Assembly (NCBI GenBank): GCA_937922785.1
Contig: CALAJQ010000013.1
Span: 1-64,000, forward strand
Source of the DNA: an uncultured Acidimicrobiales bacterium
Lineage (GTDB): Bacteria > Actinomycetota > Acidimicrobiia > Acidimicrobiales > SZUA-35
Length of the DNA: 64,000 nt
Direction: 5' to 3'
The notes under the pieces were generated by a model. The model did no database searches and had not been told where the DNA came from. It saw only the letters and a program-made list of their open reading frames with translations. The translations under genes and the position numbers were made by a program. This document shows, piece by piece, positions 54,997 through 59,688 of the stretch. Each line of letters begins with the position of its first letter. Position 1 is the first letter of the stretch.

Positions 54997-55974
54997 ATGC
55001 CCTTGATCGACAATCTTCAGTTCTCTAATTGGTCACCGAAGATCTTTGAGCAGCTGAACGCGGGTGGAGTTCACGCCGTCCACGCCACGATCGTTTACCA
55101 CGAGAACTTCAGGGAGATGGTCGCTCGAGTTGAAGAATGGAACTTGTGGTTCGAGCAGTTTCCAGAACTCATCTTCATGGGTCGAAATGGAGAAGACGTA
55201 AGGCGGGCCGAAGCCGAGAACAAGACAGCGATCTTCTTTGGATTCCAGAACCCTTCACCAATTGAAGATGACATCGGCTTGGTGGAGGTGTGTCACACCC
55301 TGGGTGCGCGCTTCATGCAGCTGACCTACAACAACCAGTCGCTTCTCGCCACAGGATGTTATGAAGATGTGGACAGCGGAGTGACCCGCTTTGGCAAACA
55401 GGTCATCGCCGAGATGAACAGAGTCGGGTTGGTCATCGATATGAGCCACTCCGCTGAGCGATCCACACTTGAGGCAATTGAGATTTCTGAGCGGCCGATT
55501 GCCATAACGCACGCAAATCCGGCCTGGTGGCACCCGGCGCTACGCAACAAATCTCACGAAGTCCTCACTGAGCTAACCCAAGCAGGCGGCATGCTCGGTT
55601 TCTCGCTTTATCCCCACCATCTGGCTGAGTCGAGCCAATGCACGCTGGAGAGTTTCTGTGAAATGGTGGCTGAAGCGGCAAGCCGCTACGGGATTGAGAA
55701 TCTAGGAATTGGCTCTGACCTTTGCCAAGACCAACCAGACAGTGTTGTCACCTGGATGCGTAATGGCCGCTGGACCAAAGTGATGGACTACGGCGAAGGC
55801 TCAGCGTCGGCTCCCGGGTTCCCAGACCAGCCCAGCTGGTTCGGCGACAGTCGCGACTTCAAAAACATTGCCGCAGGCTTGCTGGCTGTTGGGTTTAGCC
55901 AGGCTGATGCGGACGCCGTGATGGGAAACAACTGGCTTCGGTTCTACGACGAGTCCTTCGGGCCACAACAGTGA
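54997..55974 (+). CDS. Divergent M19-type (renal dipeptidase-like) protein with altered metal site
   Basis: TIM-barrel amidohydrolase-like protein, 325 aa. Recognisable M19 elements: GVHAVHATIVYHENFREMV, VIDMSHSAERSTLEAIE (His151), ITHANPAWWHPALRNKSH (His172, Arg183), and LGIGSDLCQDQP (Asp241). However, the N-terminal H-x-D metal pair is replaced by LIDNLQFSNW, and the bridging Glu is Gln84 (FFGFQNPSP). Two of the binuclear ligands are thus gone. The start is ATG 54997. The 3' end overlaps the next gene by 4 nt. It may be a hydrolase with a different metal use or an inactive partner; dipeptidase activity should not be assumed. Confidence 0.85.
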   Translation: MPLIDNLQFSNWSPKIFEQLNAGGVHAVHATIVYHENFREMVARVEEWNLWFEQFPELIFMGRNGEDVRRAEAENKTAIFFGFQNPSPIEDDIGLVEVCHTLGARFMQLTYNNQSLLATGCYEDVDSGVTRFGKQVIAEMNRVGLVIDMSHSAERSTLEAIEISERPIAITHANPAWWHPALRNKSHEVLTELTQAGGMLGFSLYPHHLAESSQCTLESFCEMVAEAASRYGIENLGIGSDLCQDQPDSVVTWMRNGRWTKVMDYGEGSASAPGFPDQPSWFGDSRDFKNIAAGLLAVGFSQADADAVMGNNWLRFYDESFGPQQ

Positions 55975-57635
55975 GACCCCCTGGCGTAGTGATGCGACTA
56001 GAGCGGATGGGTTCGTTCTTCCCGACACGCCTTAGTTTCATGCGCTCGCTAGTTAGGACTCTGGACGACGAAGGCGCCTCAGTAAGCCGGCCCGTGTGGG
56101 AGATGGACGATGAGGGATTTGGTCGGGCCGTCTACTCTGTGGACCTCAGCGGGCACACGTACTCACTGGTTGCAATCTCCTCCCAACTCGATTCCACTCA
56201 GCGAACCGATCGGGTAATCGCCGAAGCTTGGGACGCAGCATTTGTTCTGTTTGATGGTGTGCCAAGCACGGCTGACCTTGATCGACTTGAAGCCAACGCA
56301 CCGCTTCAAGAGGCAGGCCGCTTCTTGCCGTCAGACCTTGTGCTGTCGCGCGCCAACAAATCGGTCAGGCTGTTCGACCACGTCGTGTCGGCGCTGGCCG
56401 AGGGACGGCAGCCCGATATGAAGATGGTTAGCTCGATTGGCTACCTGATGAGAACTACGGCGGTCTATGGCAACGGAAAGTTTGGAATCGCTGACCGAAC
56501 CAAGCTAATTGACCGCCCAGGCATGGACCACCCCTTTAGGGCCGAGATGTTAACTGTGTGGCTGATTCGCGGTTTCACCCATGATCTGGCCGAACACGTC
56601 GCCGTCGCTCAGTCAACTGACGGCGCCGCACGGCTTGATGATTCCACTAAGCGATTCCTAGGTATTGGCAACTCAACAGGGTTGGGGATGGCGCCATTCC
56701 TAGTGAGTCACCCTGTGCTGATTAACAACTGGATGTTGGTTCGAGAAACTGCGTTGCAGCGAGTGCGCGAAGTGGCAGATGCTACTGAGGCCGAGATTGC
56801 AACGGTGGTGCGGCTTATCAAGCGGGCGCAGCAGCACTGTCGAGAATGGAACGTGCCAGACGATCGGCAAATGAGCCGGGTCGTCTCTCTTCGGGCCGAG
56901 CTTGAGGCCCTAGCTGAAGTAGCAACGCATGACTGGCTAGCGGCCAAGCAATATCCGTGGGATCGGCTAGTCAGAGAGTCCGAGCAGCACTCTCTGGAAT
57001 GTCAGGAACTAGTGGTTGGGCTTGTTCTGGAGCCTTACGGCGAACTCGTGGATGGGCTGGCTCATTGCATGGCAACTACATTTGAGGCACGGCTTGACCC
57101 GGCTATGACGTTGGCCGAACTAAAGCAGATAATTGAGGTCGATTTCGCCTGGGCGCTTGAAATCGATTTCAGTTCAGTCGCTGAGTCTTGCCAATTTTGG
57201 TACGTATCGGAAGAGAAGCTCGAACCGCGGCTGGGCCTGCGTTACGAGGAGCCAGGCGCCGAGCTTGAACAGCCACTGGACATAGCCAGAAGGGTTCAGC
57301 TACTTGGTGCTGATGTCAGTCGGCTTCAGAATCTGGCCTCACAGACTGTGGCTGAGTTCTTGGTGGCCCATCCGAATCATCGGTTTGCCGTGCGTCGAGT
57401 TCAGAATCTAAGCCGCCATCCGTATTCAGAGATTCGTGACAACCTGATCGGGGAGCAATGCCTCCCGATCGACATGTTGAGATCAAAGCTGTCCTTTTTC
57501 GGGGCGTCAAAGTTTGATCCCAAGTCTGACCGGTGGACTCGAATAACGATGTACCAAGGTGCACCTCTCTTTAGCGATCTCGCCGATAGTGGGCGAAACA
57601 ACGATGACTGGTGGCTGCCAGTTATGGCTTCGTGA
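55971..57635 (+). CDS. Uncharacterised 554-aa protein linked to M19-like and DUF3726 genes
   Basis: I do not recognise a characterised family. The frame begins GTG (55971; ATG 55992 possible) and soon reads LERMGSFFPTRLSFMRSLVR. There is no signal peptide or membrane helix. Several stretches look conserved: EAWDAAFVLFDGVPSTADLD, SSIGYLMRTTAVYGNGKFG, FLGIGNSTGLGMAPFLVSHP followed by VLINNWMLVRE, and NLIGEQCLPIDMLRSKLSFF near the C-terminus. Much of it is predicted helical with many Arg/Glu pairs. Overlaps of 4 nt with both neighbours mark a tight three-gene operon. I recall similar proteins beside DUF3726 genes in other bacteria, but no function. Confidence 0.75.
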   Translation: MRPPGVVMRLERMGSFFPTRLSFMRSLVRTLDDEGASVSRPVWEMDDEGFGRAVYSVDLSGHTYSLVAISSQLDSTQRTDRVIAEAWDAAFVLFDGVPSTADLDRLEANAPLQEAGRFLPSDLVLSRANKSVRLFDHVVSALAEGRQPDMKMVSSIGYLMRTTAVYGNGKFGIADRTKLIDRPGMDHPFRAEMLTVWLIRGFTHDLAEHVAVAQSTDGAARLDDSTKRFLGIGNSTGLGMAPFLVSHPVLINNWMLVRETALQRVREVADATEAEIATVVRLIKRAQQHCREWNVPDDRQMSRVVSLRAELEALAEVATHDWLAAKQYPWDRLVRESEQHSLECQELVVGLVLEPYGELVDGLAHCMATTFEARLDPAMTLAELKQIIEVDFAWALEIDFSSVAESCQFWYVSEEKLEPRLGLRYEEPGAELEQPLDIARRVQLLGADVSRLQNLASQTVAEFLVAHPNHRFAVRRVQNLSRHPYSEIRDNLIGEQCLPIDMLRSKLSFFGASKFDPKSDRWTRITMYQGAPLFSDLADSGRNNDDWWLPVMAS

Positions 57636-58132
57636 TCTGTTCCCAGAACGAGATCGTCGCCGTCATCTACAAGGCAGCGATTGGATCGGGTCTAGCCGTT
57701 GGGATCGCCCAGGACCTGGCCCAGGCCGGGGCACTGCTTTGCGCGGAGGGCAAACCAGGCGTTGCGCTTGCTATCGAGAGTTTTGATGAGGATGTGGCGA
57801 GCTGGTGTTCCGCGTTTGACCTGCTGGCGTGCGGCAGCCAAACCGAAGTCACAGTTGTGCTGGAAGCTGCCGCCGATGTGTTGTGGGCCCTCGGAGTGCT
57901 GGCCGGCCGCGCCTATGGGATTACCTACCATCACGAGGTCGCAAGTGGCACTGCTGTGGTGACTTGTGTTGCGGGCGCTCCAGCTGCTTGGATCGCAGGG
58001 TCTACTGGGGCAGTAGAAGTAGCTGAGGCCGATCTTGAGCGCGCACACGCGTTGGCCCACAAGACTTACGTTCCAGCGACCGAAGCATCACGTATCAGCG
58101 GCGCTGGCGCTGGCCTGACTGACAACGACTGA
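57632..58132 (+). CDS. DUF3726-domain protein
   Basis: About 166 aa from the GTG at 57632, which overlaps the upstream stop by 4 nt (GTGA); the frame is open to 57611. The N-terminal sequence CSQNEIVAVIYKAAIGSG, LAVGIAQDLAQAGALL and GKPGVALAI matches the DUF3726 pattern as I remember it. The protein ends KTYVPATEASRISGAGAGLTDND, an apparently conserved tail. Alanine-rich, soluble, no signal peptide. No biochemical role is known to me. Third gene of the operon with the M19-like and 554-aa proteins. Confidence 0.72.
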   Translation: MICSQNEIVAVIYKAAIGSGLAVGIAQDLAQAGALLCAEGKPGVALAIESFDEDVASWCSAFDLLACGSQTEVTVVLEAAADVLWALGVLAGRAYGITYHHEVASGTAVVTCVAGAPAAWIAGSTGAVEVAEADLERAHALAHKTYVPATEASRISGAGAGLTDND

Positions 58133-58329: not shown

Positions 58330-59688
58330 ATGCGAAACGCGGGTTCGCGCCATAGCCGAAAGCGGCTAGCAGGCACGTTACTAGTTCTGGCTGCCTTGAT
58401 TGGCAGTGTCATGGGAGTCGGCAGTCCGGTTCAAGCAAGAGTCAATGGTGGCGTCATGTTTGGTGCCTCGGTTGGCCCAACTCGTCAGCGCGGGCTAGCT
58501 GAAACCGAAGCACTGCTGGGCCGTCAGCTAGACCTTGTCCGGGTCTTTGAAAGCTGGGATGGCCACTCACCAAAGGCCTACTGGACCGATGTTCTCGAAG
58601 AGGGCCGGACCATGTTGATCTCGGTTAGGTCAAAGCGAAGCAACGGCTCACGGGTTAACTGGCGCCAGATCGCTGACGCTCAACCTGGCAGTCAACTCCA
58701 CAACGAGATGGTCGCCTGGGCAAAGTCAATGAGAGACGCCAAGGGTGAAATTTGGTTCACCTTCCAGCACGAGCCTGAGATCACCGAGAACCTAAGCAAC
58801 GGAAACAGTTCTGACTTCAAGGCTGCATGGCGCAAGTTCGTGTCAATCATGCGAGCCAACAATGCCAACGTAAAGTACGCCTGGATCATGAGCTCGTGGT
58901 CCTACCAGGTGAATTCGTCGGATCGCCGTTCGGCTAACAAGTGGTACCCAGGCGATGATGTCGTCGACTTCATCGGGGCTGATCCGTACAACTGGTCAAA
59001 CTGTCGAGCCAACGACGCAGTGGTTAATCGCTCAATGGCCGAAATCACAGAGTCCTTCCGTAAGTTCGGCCAAAGCCACCCGAACAAGGGTCTGATCCTG
59101 GGGGAGTGGGCATCCACTGACTTCCGGAACTCTGGCACAAAGGCCGGTTGGATCAACGACGTTCGGGCTCTGTTCAAGAAATCGGAGTGGTCACAGTTGG
59201 CAGCCATTGCCTACTACAACGCTCACGACCCGAAGTTCCCTCGATGTACTTGGGAGATCGATTCCTCCACTTCTGCGTTGAACGCTCTGAAGGCGATGGC
59301 AAACGATCCGTTCTACAACCCTGGTGGCGGTGCCCCCGACCCAGTTCCGGGCGGTGGTGACGGTGACCCAAAATTGCCTCCCGGTCCAGCAGTCGGCCCC
59401 CGACAGTCGCTGATGACAGGCCGGGTGAACTCCAACAACCAGGGTCACGCACGGTGGGTTTCAACTACATACACCGCTCCTAAGACCGGAAGTTACGTCT
59501 TCAAGATGTGGCATCAAGGCGGAAACCTCGATGCAGATATCCGAAGGACTAACGGCGCATGGATCGGAGTGCTCGGAGGTGACCTGGTCACTCGAGTAAA
59601 CCTGACCCAAGGGCAGAATTATCAAGTGGCCATTTGGGCTAAGTCCGGCGAGGGCCTATTCGAAATTAACGTTTACGCACCCCGCTAA
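58330..59688 (+). CDS. Secreted glycoside hydrolase, GH26-like, with C-terminal beta-sandwich domain
   Basis: Exported polysaccharide hydrolase (beta-mannanase or related clan GH-A enzyme). ATG 58330 is preceded by GTGGAGGAAACA at ideal spacing; 452 aa. Signal peptide: basic SRHSRKRL, then LAGTLLVLAALIGSVMGVG and a cut after VQA. The catalytic barrel (about 30-330) carries the acid/base Glu in FTFQHEPEITEN, YPGDDVVDFIGADPYNW, and the nucleophile Glu in LILGEWASTDF. After a Gly/Pro/Asp linker (PDPVPGGGDGDP) a 90-residue beta-rich domain (ARWVSTTYTAPKTGSYVFKM ... YQVAIWAKSGEGLFEINVYA) resembles a pre-peptidase C-terminal/carbohydrate-binding fold. Substrate unknown; it may trim the exopolysaccharide. 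Confidence 0.83.
   Translation: MRNAGSRHSRKRLAGTLLVLAALIGSVMGVGSPVQARVNGGVMFGASVGPTRQRGLAETEALLGRQLDLVRVFESWDGHSPKAYWTDVLEEGRTMLISVRSKRSNGSRVNWRQIADAQPGSQLHNEMVAWAKSMRDAKGEIWFTFQHEPEITENLSNGNSSDFKAAWRKFVSIMRANNANVKYAWIMSSWSYQVNSSDRRSANKWYPGDDVVDFIGADPYNWSNCRANDAVVNRSMAEITESFRKFGQSHPNKGLILGEWASTDFRNSGTKAGWINDVRALFKKSEWSQLAAIAYYNAHDPKFPRCTWEIDSSTSALNALKAMANDPFYNPGGGAPDPVPGGGDGDPKLPPGPAVGPRQSLMTGRVNSNNQGHARWVSTTYTAPKTGSYVFKMWHQGGNLDADIRRTNGAWIGVLGGDLVTRVNLTQGQNYQVAIWAKSGEGLFEINVYAPR

Follow-up and report, generated by a model that had tools for sequence, protein, structure and literature searches.

Homarine is N-methylpicolinate, which has six carbons without its methyl group, against five in N-methylglutamate. 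Ferrer-Gonzalez et al. are said to have described, in Nature Microbiology in 2026 (11:1531), an operon for its use, homABCDER, with five enzymes and a regulator; homarine is reportedly converted to N-methylglutamate and glutamate, and the carriers are said to be roseobacters, SAR11, SAR116, and small-genome oligotrophs. N-methylglutamate dehydrogenase (Mgd) participates in homarine catabolism, according to another 2026 report (PMC13390433). In the present study, three adjacent genes are described from a 64,000-nucleotide stretch (positions 1 to 64,000 of contig CALAJQ010000013.1, hereafter the window) of an uncultured Acidimicrobiales bacterium. They encode a protein like those of peptidase family M19, a 554-residue protein of no nameable family (the orphan), and a DUF3726 protein. 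This trio is a real, conserved, and unnamed module, most likely with a role in the breakdown of N-methyl betaines. To the more specific reading we give about an even chance: the trio would have been acquired by horizontal transfer, as the core of an operon that serves the catabolism of a betaine-like, N-methylated heterocycle, with homarine as the most probable compound.

Three linked and conserved genes

All three genes lie on the forward strand. The M19-like gene (54997..55974) starts with ATG and encodes 325 residues; the orphan gene (55971..57635) and the DUF3726 gene (57632..58132; 166 residues, C-terminal GAGAGLTDND) both start with GTG. Each GTG overlaps the preceding stop codon by 4 nt in the sequence GTGA (55971..55974 and 57632..57635), as was read in a first-pass annotation, which called the trio an operon with 4-nt overlaps at both junctions. 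Mechanically, the DUF3726 open reading frame (ORF) begins at 57611, but agreement with its relatives (MICS-NE...) puts the start at the GTG of 57632.

The 554-residue protein had been said to belong to no family that could be named, and indeed it has no family match in Pfam and a match in NCBIfam at chance level only (11.8 bits against a cut-off of 60). Relatives of the orphan are encoded in 16 of 395 genomes from the class of the window, the window genome counted, and in 53 of 385 genomes of the Alphaproteobacteria, the class of the Rhizobiaceae metagenome-assembled genome (MAG) G398. Further relatives are found in 168 plasmid records, 122 of them from Sinorhizobium and Phaeobacter, and at nine named MAG loci; the orphan is also present on single contigs of 1.20, 1.32, and 1.41 Mb. 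Eleven of 88 sequences were dropped from the alignment by length (fragments and mis-started ORFs) or as a fusion. Among the 77 that remained, conservation reaches 98.5% or more of the sequences at 33 positions and 93% or more at a further 38; the window orphan matches the family at all of these 71 positions. Motifs that are invariant, or nearly so, in a ten-row alignment are RTTAVYGxGKFG, GIGNSTGLGMAPF, WYVSEEKxEPR, and FFGAxxFDPxSDRWxR.

The single-chain AlphaFold model of the orphan has a predicted local distance difference test score (pLDDT) of 71.6 and a predicted template modelling score (pTM) of 0.74, and it is poor in several conserved motifs. A search by sequence among solved structures returned nothing; by fold, no Foldseek match was found at E 0.001, and the best VIA-align Z score was 4.4 over 76 residues. 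Since the model is middling and several conserved motifs are poorly modelled, the missing structural match is no evidence for a new fold. A relationship to the Ldh_2 dehydrogenases was also considered for the orphan, and the profile comparison (P 0.016, the best of eight) was unconvincing.

Neighbouring genes were counted in loci of up to 20 kb under strict score limits, with the match of a locus to its own query excluded. The 53 alphaproteobacterial loci represent 51 genomes, as G654 and G556 contribute two loci apiece, and contig ends truncate some of them. Two further positive genomes, G398 and G396, are already represented by loci L024 and L022 and were not counted among the 53. Within 3.5 kb of the orphan, these loci carry an M19 gene in 45 cases (44 on the same strand), a DUF3726 gene in 47, an Ldh_2 gene in 17, and an aldehyde dehydrogenase gene in 12 (18 anywhere in the locus). 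Of fifteen loci of the window's class, 13 have M19, 10 have Ldh_2 (same strand in 4 cases), 2 have DUF3726, and none has aldehyde dehydrogenase. The nine MAG loci gave M19 in 8, DUF3726 in 9, and Ldh_2 in 6. Ten plasmid loci gave M19 in 9, DUF3726 in 7, and aldehyde dehydrogenase in 4 (9 anywhere). With self-matches included, the DUF3726 counts would be 48/53, 3/15, and 9/10 for the alphaproteobacterial, own-class, and plasmid loci, respectively. The earlier claim that the three genes belong together is borne out by these counts, and a scattered placement was not found. Since the same trio occurs side by side in proteobacteria and in actinobacteria, and the orphan agrees at every conserved position, the arrangement is more than chance.

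The wider setting of the trio resembles a catabolic operon for a betaine-like compound rather than the stand-alone amide enzyme that had been suggested before. Annotated plasmids carry a fuller operon, which in Ruegeria sp. TM1040 is a cluster of the type LysR-aldehyde dehydrogenase-M19-BCCT transporter-orphan-DUF3726, with an Ldh gene. The cluster of Sulfitobacter sp. W027 has a BCCT gene, likewise placed between M19 and orphan, and RidA but no Ldh, and that of Phaeobacter has RidA with neither BCCT nor Ldh. On plasmids of Shinella and Aminobacter, LysR, aldehyde dehydrogenase, M19, orphan, DUF3726, and Ldh genes occur together with ATP-binding cassette genes of the glycine-betaine type. The best matches of the TM1040 aldehyde dehydrogenase are to 2,5-dioxovalerate dehydrogenase (476 bits, cut-off 750) and alpha-ketoglutarate semialdehyde dehydrogenase (471 bits, cut-off 770), both below cut-off; the former is a C5 semialdehyde enzyme. 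The presence of the orphan in Ruegeria, Phaeobacter, and Sulfitobacter, and on the three large contigs mentioned above, fits what we take to be the carriers of the hom operon. In two genomes of about 1.4 Mb (L104 in G433 and L102 in G661), ProX, ProW, ProV, aldehyde dehydrogenase, M19, orphan, and DUF3726 genes stand in one run. The cluster of Phaeobacter inhibens DSM 17395 (L031, 13973-23304) adjoins genes annotated for dimethylsulfoniopropionate demethylation.

The M19-like and DUF3726 proteins

The M19-like protein matches the peptidase M19 family as a whole (PF01244, 229 bits, cut-off 26). The motifs DNLQFSNW, Gln84, MSH, ITHANP, and GSD are all found in it, and no signal peptide is seen. 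It was noticed earlier that DNLQFSNW stands in place of the H-x-D metal ligands and Gln84 in place of the bridging Glu, and both replacements extend to the relatives. M19 proteins from orphan-bearing loci were aligned in 75 rows (2 of 77 sequences were dropped by length), and Gln replaces the bridging Glu in all 75. The position of the first-ligand His of H-x-D is Leu in 74 rows and Thr in one, and the Asp position is taken by Tyr, Ile, Phe, Cys, Ala, or Met, so that His and Asp occur there in 0/75; this H-x-D comparison rests on reading of the sequences and on the alignment with the solved structure 2i5g, the N-terminal alignment of the three other M19 proteins of the window genome being unreliable. 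Of the ligand set of a binuclear site (H-x-D, bridging Glu, and two later His), only the two His are retained. Invariant throughout are His151, His172, Arg183, and Asp241, as well as Asp5, Gln84, Asn85, Tyr111, and Asn112. Except for the Glu column, the match of these positions to the renal dipeptidase ligands is our assumption. None of the 75 keeps the lost ligands, and the altered metal site is a property of the clade.

Three further M19 proteins are encoded in the window genome, and two of them carry Glu in the Glu column. The remaining one (L001; G000:C9:87093-88220) has Gln in place of the bridging Glu within GFQN, Gln at the first later His, and an N-terminal HAD; judged by these residues, it is a different altered site from that of the trio protein.

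The nearest solved structure by sequence to the window protein is 2i5g, an 'amidohydrolase', which shares with it a D-x-L start, GFQN replacing the Glu ligand, and the motifs TGCYE and EMNRVG. We take 2i5g to be a Pseudomonas aeruginosa protein and presumably the product of pepD near dgcAB. An amide or formamide would fit as the substrate of the M19-like protein. The dimethylglycine genes dgcAB of Vibrio natriegens and P. aeruginosa come after a dipeptidase gene (pepD) and a hypothetical gene (PMC12093977), which may place altered M19 proteins of this sort a second time in the catabolism of N-methyl compounds.

The third gene had been assigned to DUF3726, and its product does reach PF12525 with 22.8 bits over a cut-off of 22.1; the TM1040 relative scores 106.8 bits. 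The model of the window protein (pLDDT 76.9, pTM 0.69) has no Foldseek match at E 0.001. In VIA-align, its best rows are 1nxu (Z 9.4 over 135 residues at 4.3 A), 1xrh (9.1), 3uoe (9.0), and 1wtj (8.9), to be read with the warning of the tool that best Z scores of 7-8 are common; 11 of the 12 best rows are, we believe, Ldh_2 dehydrogenases. In an independent comparison, the profile of 63 DUF3726 proteins (20 of 83 candidate downstream ORFs were dropped as not DUF3726-like or of the wrong length) matched that of 39 Ldh_2 proteins (1 of 40 dropped) over the first 60 positions with P 1.2e-5 and a probability of 81%. Seven other families from these operons, used as controls, gave P 0.17-0.96. None of the DUF3726 proteins scanned reaches the Pfam cut-off for Ldh_2 (PF02615). 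The SHG motif, presumably that of the catalytic His of Ldh_2, is found in 3 of 63 DUF3726 proteins against 29 of 40 linked Ldh_2 proteins. Together, model and profile support, without proving, that DUF3726 is an Ldh_2 relative that lacks the nucleotide-binding part. No publication on DUF3726 was found in the literature search.

The orphan and the DUF3726 protein appear to form one unit, since they are fused in a single 814-residue protein of Mesorhizobium sp. 131-2-1, the 868-residue orphan of L119 seems by eye to have a DUF3726-like tail, and the two genes overlap by 4 nt in 29 of 63 loci (a count that leans upwards, as the choice of start favours closeness to the orphan stop). The orphan would be the large subunit and DUF3726 the small subunit of a proposed two-subunit enzyme. 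At L073, L075, L093, and L098, the pair occurs without a nearby M19 gene.

The linked oxidase and the proposed pathway

Some orphan loci carry genes for a four-subunit oxidase of the sarcosine oxidase or Mgd kind. A tree of its alpha subunit (SoxA) was built from 27 rows, for which 20 regions were picked out of a much longer list; the G733 row is partial (798 residues) and HOM_G563 has a long branch. All seven alpha subunits from proteobacterial orphan loci fall in one clade of 13 rows (support 99/99). The same clade holds the two alpha subunits that come from gmaS/mgs-type clusters, in which the glutamate-synthase-like genes were named by eye. Those of TM1040 and G733 are near one of these two, and those of G609 and G699 adjoin the other. 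An alpha subunit of G425, 23 kb from its orphan, also belongs to this Mgd clade, and of the 13 other copies, ten fall outside it and three inside. Against solved sarcosine oxidase, the TM1040 alpha subunit scores 677 bits and one from outside the clade scores 895 bits, so that the TM1040 protein is the more distant of the two. Since G733, G699, G468, and G563, all linked genomes, have no gmaS over the cut-off in a screen that covered the linked genomes other than Shinella and TM1040, methylamine use does not explain their Mgd-type enzyme. By its place in the tree, the proteobacterial orphan-linked oxidase is of the Mgd type, so that the proteobacterial pathway most likely ends in N-methylglutamate. 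Seven proteobacterial loci have an Mgd-clade alpha subunit linked to the orphan; none lies near the trio in the window.

From the chemistry and the gene content, a chain of enzymes from homarine to N-methylglutamate can be inferred. Since ring carbon 6 is lost on this route, a ring-opening enzyme, a deformylating hydrolase, an imine reductase, and a C5-semialdehyde dehydrogenase would be needed; the simplest way out for this carbon would be as an N-formyl group, once the C5-C6 bond is broken. The betaine would be imported by a BCCT or ProXWV transporter. In one possible order of the following four steps, the two-subunit enzyme of orphan and DUF3726 would attack and open the N-methylpyridinium ring, and the M19-like protein, whose remaining ligands would hold one metal at most, would hydrolyse the N-formyl (amide-like) intermediate. 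The Ldh_2 dehydrogenase would then act as an imine reductase on the resulting C=N bond, for which the family has a precedent in delta1-piperideine-2-carboxylate reductase, and the aldehyde dehydrogenase would convert the C5 semialdehyde to N-methylglutamate. Finally, Mgd, or a one-chain FAD-GcvT enzyme (flavin adenine dinucleotide and GcvT parts) in some genomes, would pass the methyl group to folate and leave glutamate. What the analysis shows is the gene content, the linkage, the conservation, and the grouping of the linked oxidase; the substrate, the order of the four middle steps, and each chemical role are inferred from these.

The boldest form of this proposal is that orphan and DUF3726 are a new class of two-subunit enzyme, of unsolved fold, that opens the aromatic ring of N-methylpyridinium carboxylates, with a small subunit derived from Ldh_2 by loss of the nucleotide-binding domain and an M19 partner converted from a dipeptidase to remove the formyl group. 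Taken as a whole, we hold this tentatively and consider it rather unlikely. Neither such an enzyme class nor the relation of DUF3726 to Ldh_2 was found in the literature searched.

Origin and alternative explanations

In a quick tree of the orphans, the window sequence groups with L021 (an Acidimicrobiales MAG) and L129 (from the window's order) with a support of 98 in the Shimodaira-Hasegawa-like approximate likelihood ratio test. This group sits inside an otherwise proteobacterial part of the tree, near Shinella and Aminobacter, and since the window orphan is nested in this way, the tree suggests that it was transferred from proteobacteria. L137, also from the window's order, falls in another proteobacterial part. 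Twelve orphans of the window's class or order (L123-L127 and L130-L136) form a deep clade, about 35% identical to the window orphan; in ten of them the next ORF is M19, with no recognisable DUF3726 between, and this clade probably has a second substrate. G654 and G556 have two orphans each, of which the first kind groups with those of Phaeobacter and Ruegeria; the second kind also includes the orphans of Shinella and Aminobacter, whose operons are fully decorated. Divergent versions at about 29% identity stand beside an aminotransferase, a succinate-semialdehyde dehydrogenase, and RidA on pSymB of Sinorhizobium meliloti (L034, 14944-18390) and beside alpha/beta hydrolases, with no M19 nearby, in Mesorhizobium ciceri (L037, 12022-14423).

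Several observations weigh against the homarine reading. Betaine-type transporters are in the minority (9/53 alphaproteobacterial, 0/9 MAG, 2/15 own-class, and 5/10 plasmid loci), and so are SoxA or FAD-GcvT genes (9/53, 2/9, 1/15, and 2/10, respectively; both MAG matches are FAD-GcvT and the single own-class match is SoxA). The reading is weakened because so few loci carry a transporter or an oxidase. Three unlinked alpha subunits (G733b, G654b, and G615b) are inside the Mgd clade. Outside it fall that of G556, 35 kb from the orphan, and that of G366, the only linked one of the window's class, which is placed with the two of the window genome; in addition, G609 has both a linked Mgd and gmaS. 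Structural comparison of the orphan model allowed neither a cofactor nor a fold to be assigned, and that the published hom genes are those of the trio families is our presumption. The window orphan groups with the second, less decorated kind of G654 and G556, whose substrate may be another betaine. In the window, only M19 and DUF3726 are beside the orphan and the trio has no partner genes next to it; the best own-genome matches to the Shinella operon proteins lie elsewhere (Ldh_2 44% and aldehyde dehydrogenase up to 39% identity). A 68% relative of the FAD-GcvT enzyme that is near the trio in L021 is located in the window genome beside sarcosine-oxidase-like genes. This genome could therefore hold all of the pathway at dispersed places; alternatively, its copy in the window may be for a different betaine.

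In the window, the gene polA (named from sequence) lies 89 bp upstream of the trio. The gene 3' of the trio (58333-59688) matches GH26 weakly (23.9 bits against a cut-off of 20.2), was not seen in the module at other loci, and is followed by a gene like that of ribosomal protein S1 (also named from sequence). In a promoter and terminator scan, the counts were not clearly higher than in shuffled sequence (2 against 1.5 and 4 against 3.3).

A module of the same kind could also act on a different quaternary or N-methyl compound, such as trigonelline, a proline or pipecolate betaine, or a dimethylglycine-like compound, with M19 and orphan working on breakdown products. Betaine transporters and mandelate-racemase-like and trimethylamine-methyltransferase-like genes near some copies point in this direction, as do the paralogs, two per genome, and the differing settings in Sinorhizobium and M. 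ciceri, which suggest more than one substrate for the family; pepD and the hypothetical gene ahead of dgcAB (PMC12093977) agree with it. The Mgd-type partner, however, points to N-methylglutamate as product, which homarine fits best, and we regard a different substrate as a substantial possibility, though one on the smaller side. The loss of H-x-D and of the bridging Glu in 75 of 75 rows could mean that the M19-like protein has lost catalysis and works as a scaffold or binding protein, which would be compatible with homarine or with another substrate. Yet no row has lost the two His, the Arg, or the Asp of the classic site, nor D5, Q84, N85, Y111, or N112. This speaks for selection on a pocket, as in an enzyme with one metal or none, and a dead protein is improbable.

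The first-pass annotation had proposed that the three proteins make up a single cytoplasmic enzyme or complex, with an amide or a small amino-acid conjugate as substrate, which would agree with the overlapping genes and the conserved trio. This proposal fares poorly, and slightly worse than a dead M19 protein, as M19 is separable: the BCCT gene comes between it and the orphan in TM1040 and W027, the orphan-DUF3726 pair exists without it, and the fusion covers orphan and DUF3726 only. An ordinary two-metal dipeptidase beside unrelated genes, for which the PF01244 match speaks, is scarcely credible given the absent ligands and a linkage kept across phyla.

Comparison with known systems

The orphan, if it does open the ring, would be a new enzyme class. 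A testable role is now offered for a widespread unnamed family (168 plasmid records and, in one class, 53 of the 385 species genomes that were sampled), DUF3726 is connected to a known dehydrogenase family, and altered M19 proteins find a place in the catabolism of methylated nitrogen compounds. The homarine substrate and operon may already have been published. As far as its excerpts go, the literature searched, outside which the 2026 operon paper lies, named no homarine gene other than Mgd and gave no match for homABCDER.

The DUF3726 model aligns with members of the Ldh_2 family (delta1-piperideine-2-carboxylate reductase, YiaK, and ureidoglycolate dehydrogenase) at Z 7.4-9.4 over 135-147 residues, whereas DUF3726 is about half as long and rarely has SHG. 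With renal dipeptidase and peptidase family M19, the trio protein has in common the family match, the two His, the Arg, and the Asp, but not H-x-D and the bridging Glu. The partners of pepD are a hypothetical gene and dgcAB, unlike the orphan and DUF3726 of the trio. SoxBDAG-like genes, as in Mgd and heterotetrameric sarcosine oxidase, occur in some orphan loci, though near a minority of orphans. The window differs from the homarine operon in that only three genes are together, and in an actinobacterium; Mgd is a partner in homarine catabolism, and alpha subunits of the Mgd clade occur at seven proteobacterial orphan loci.

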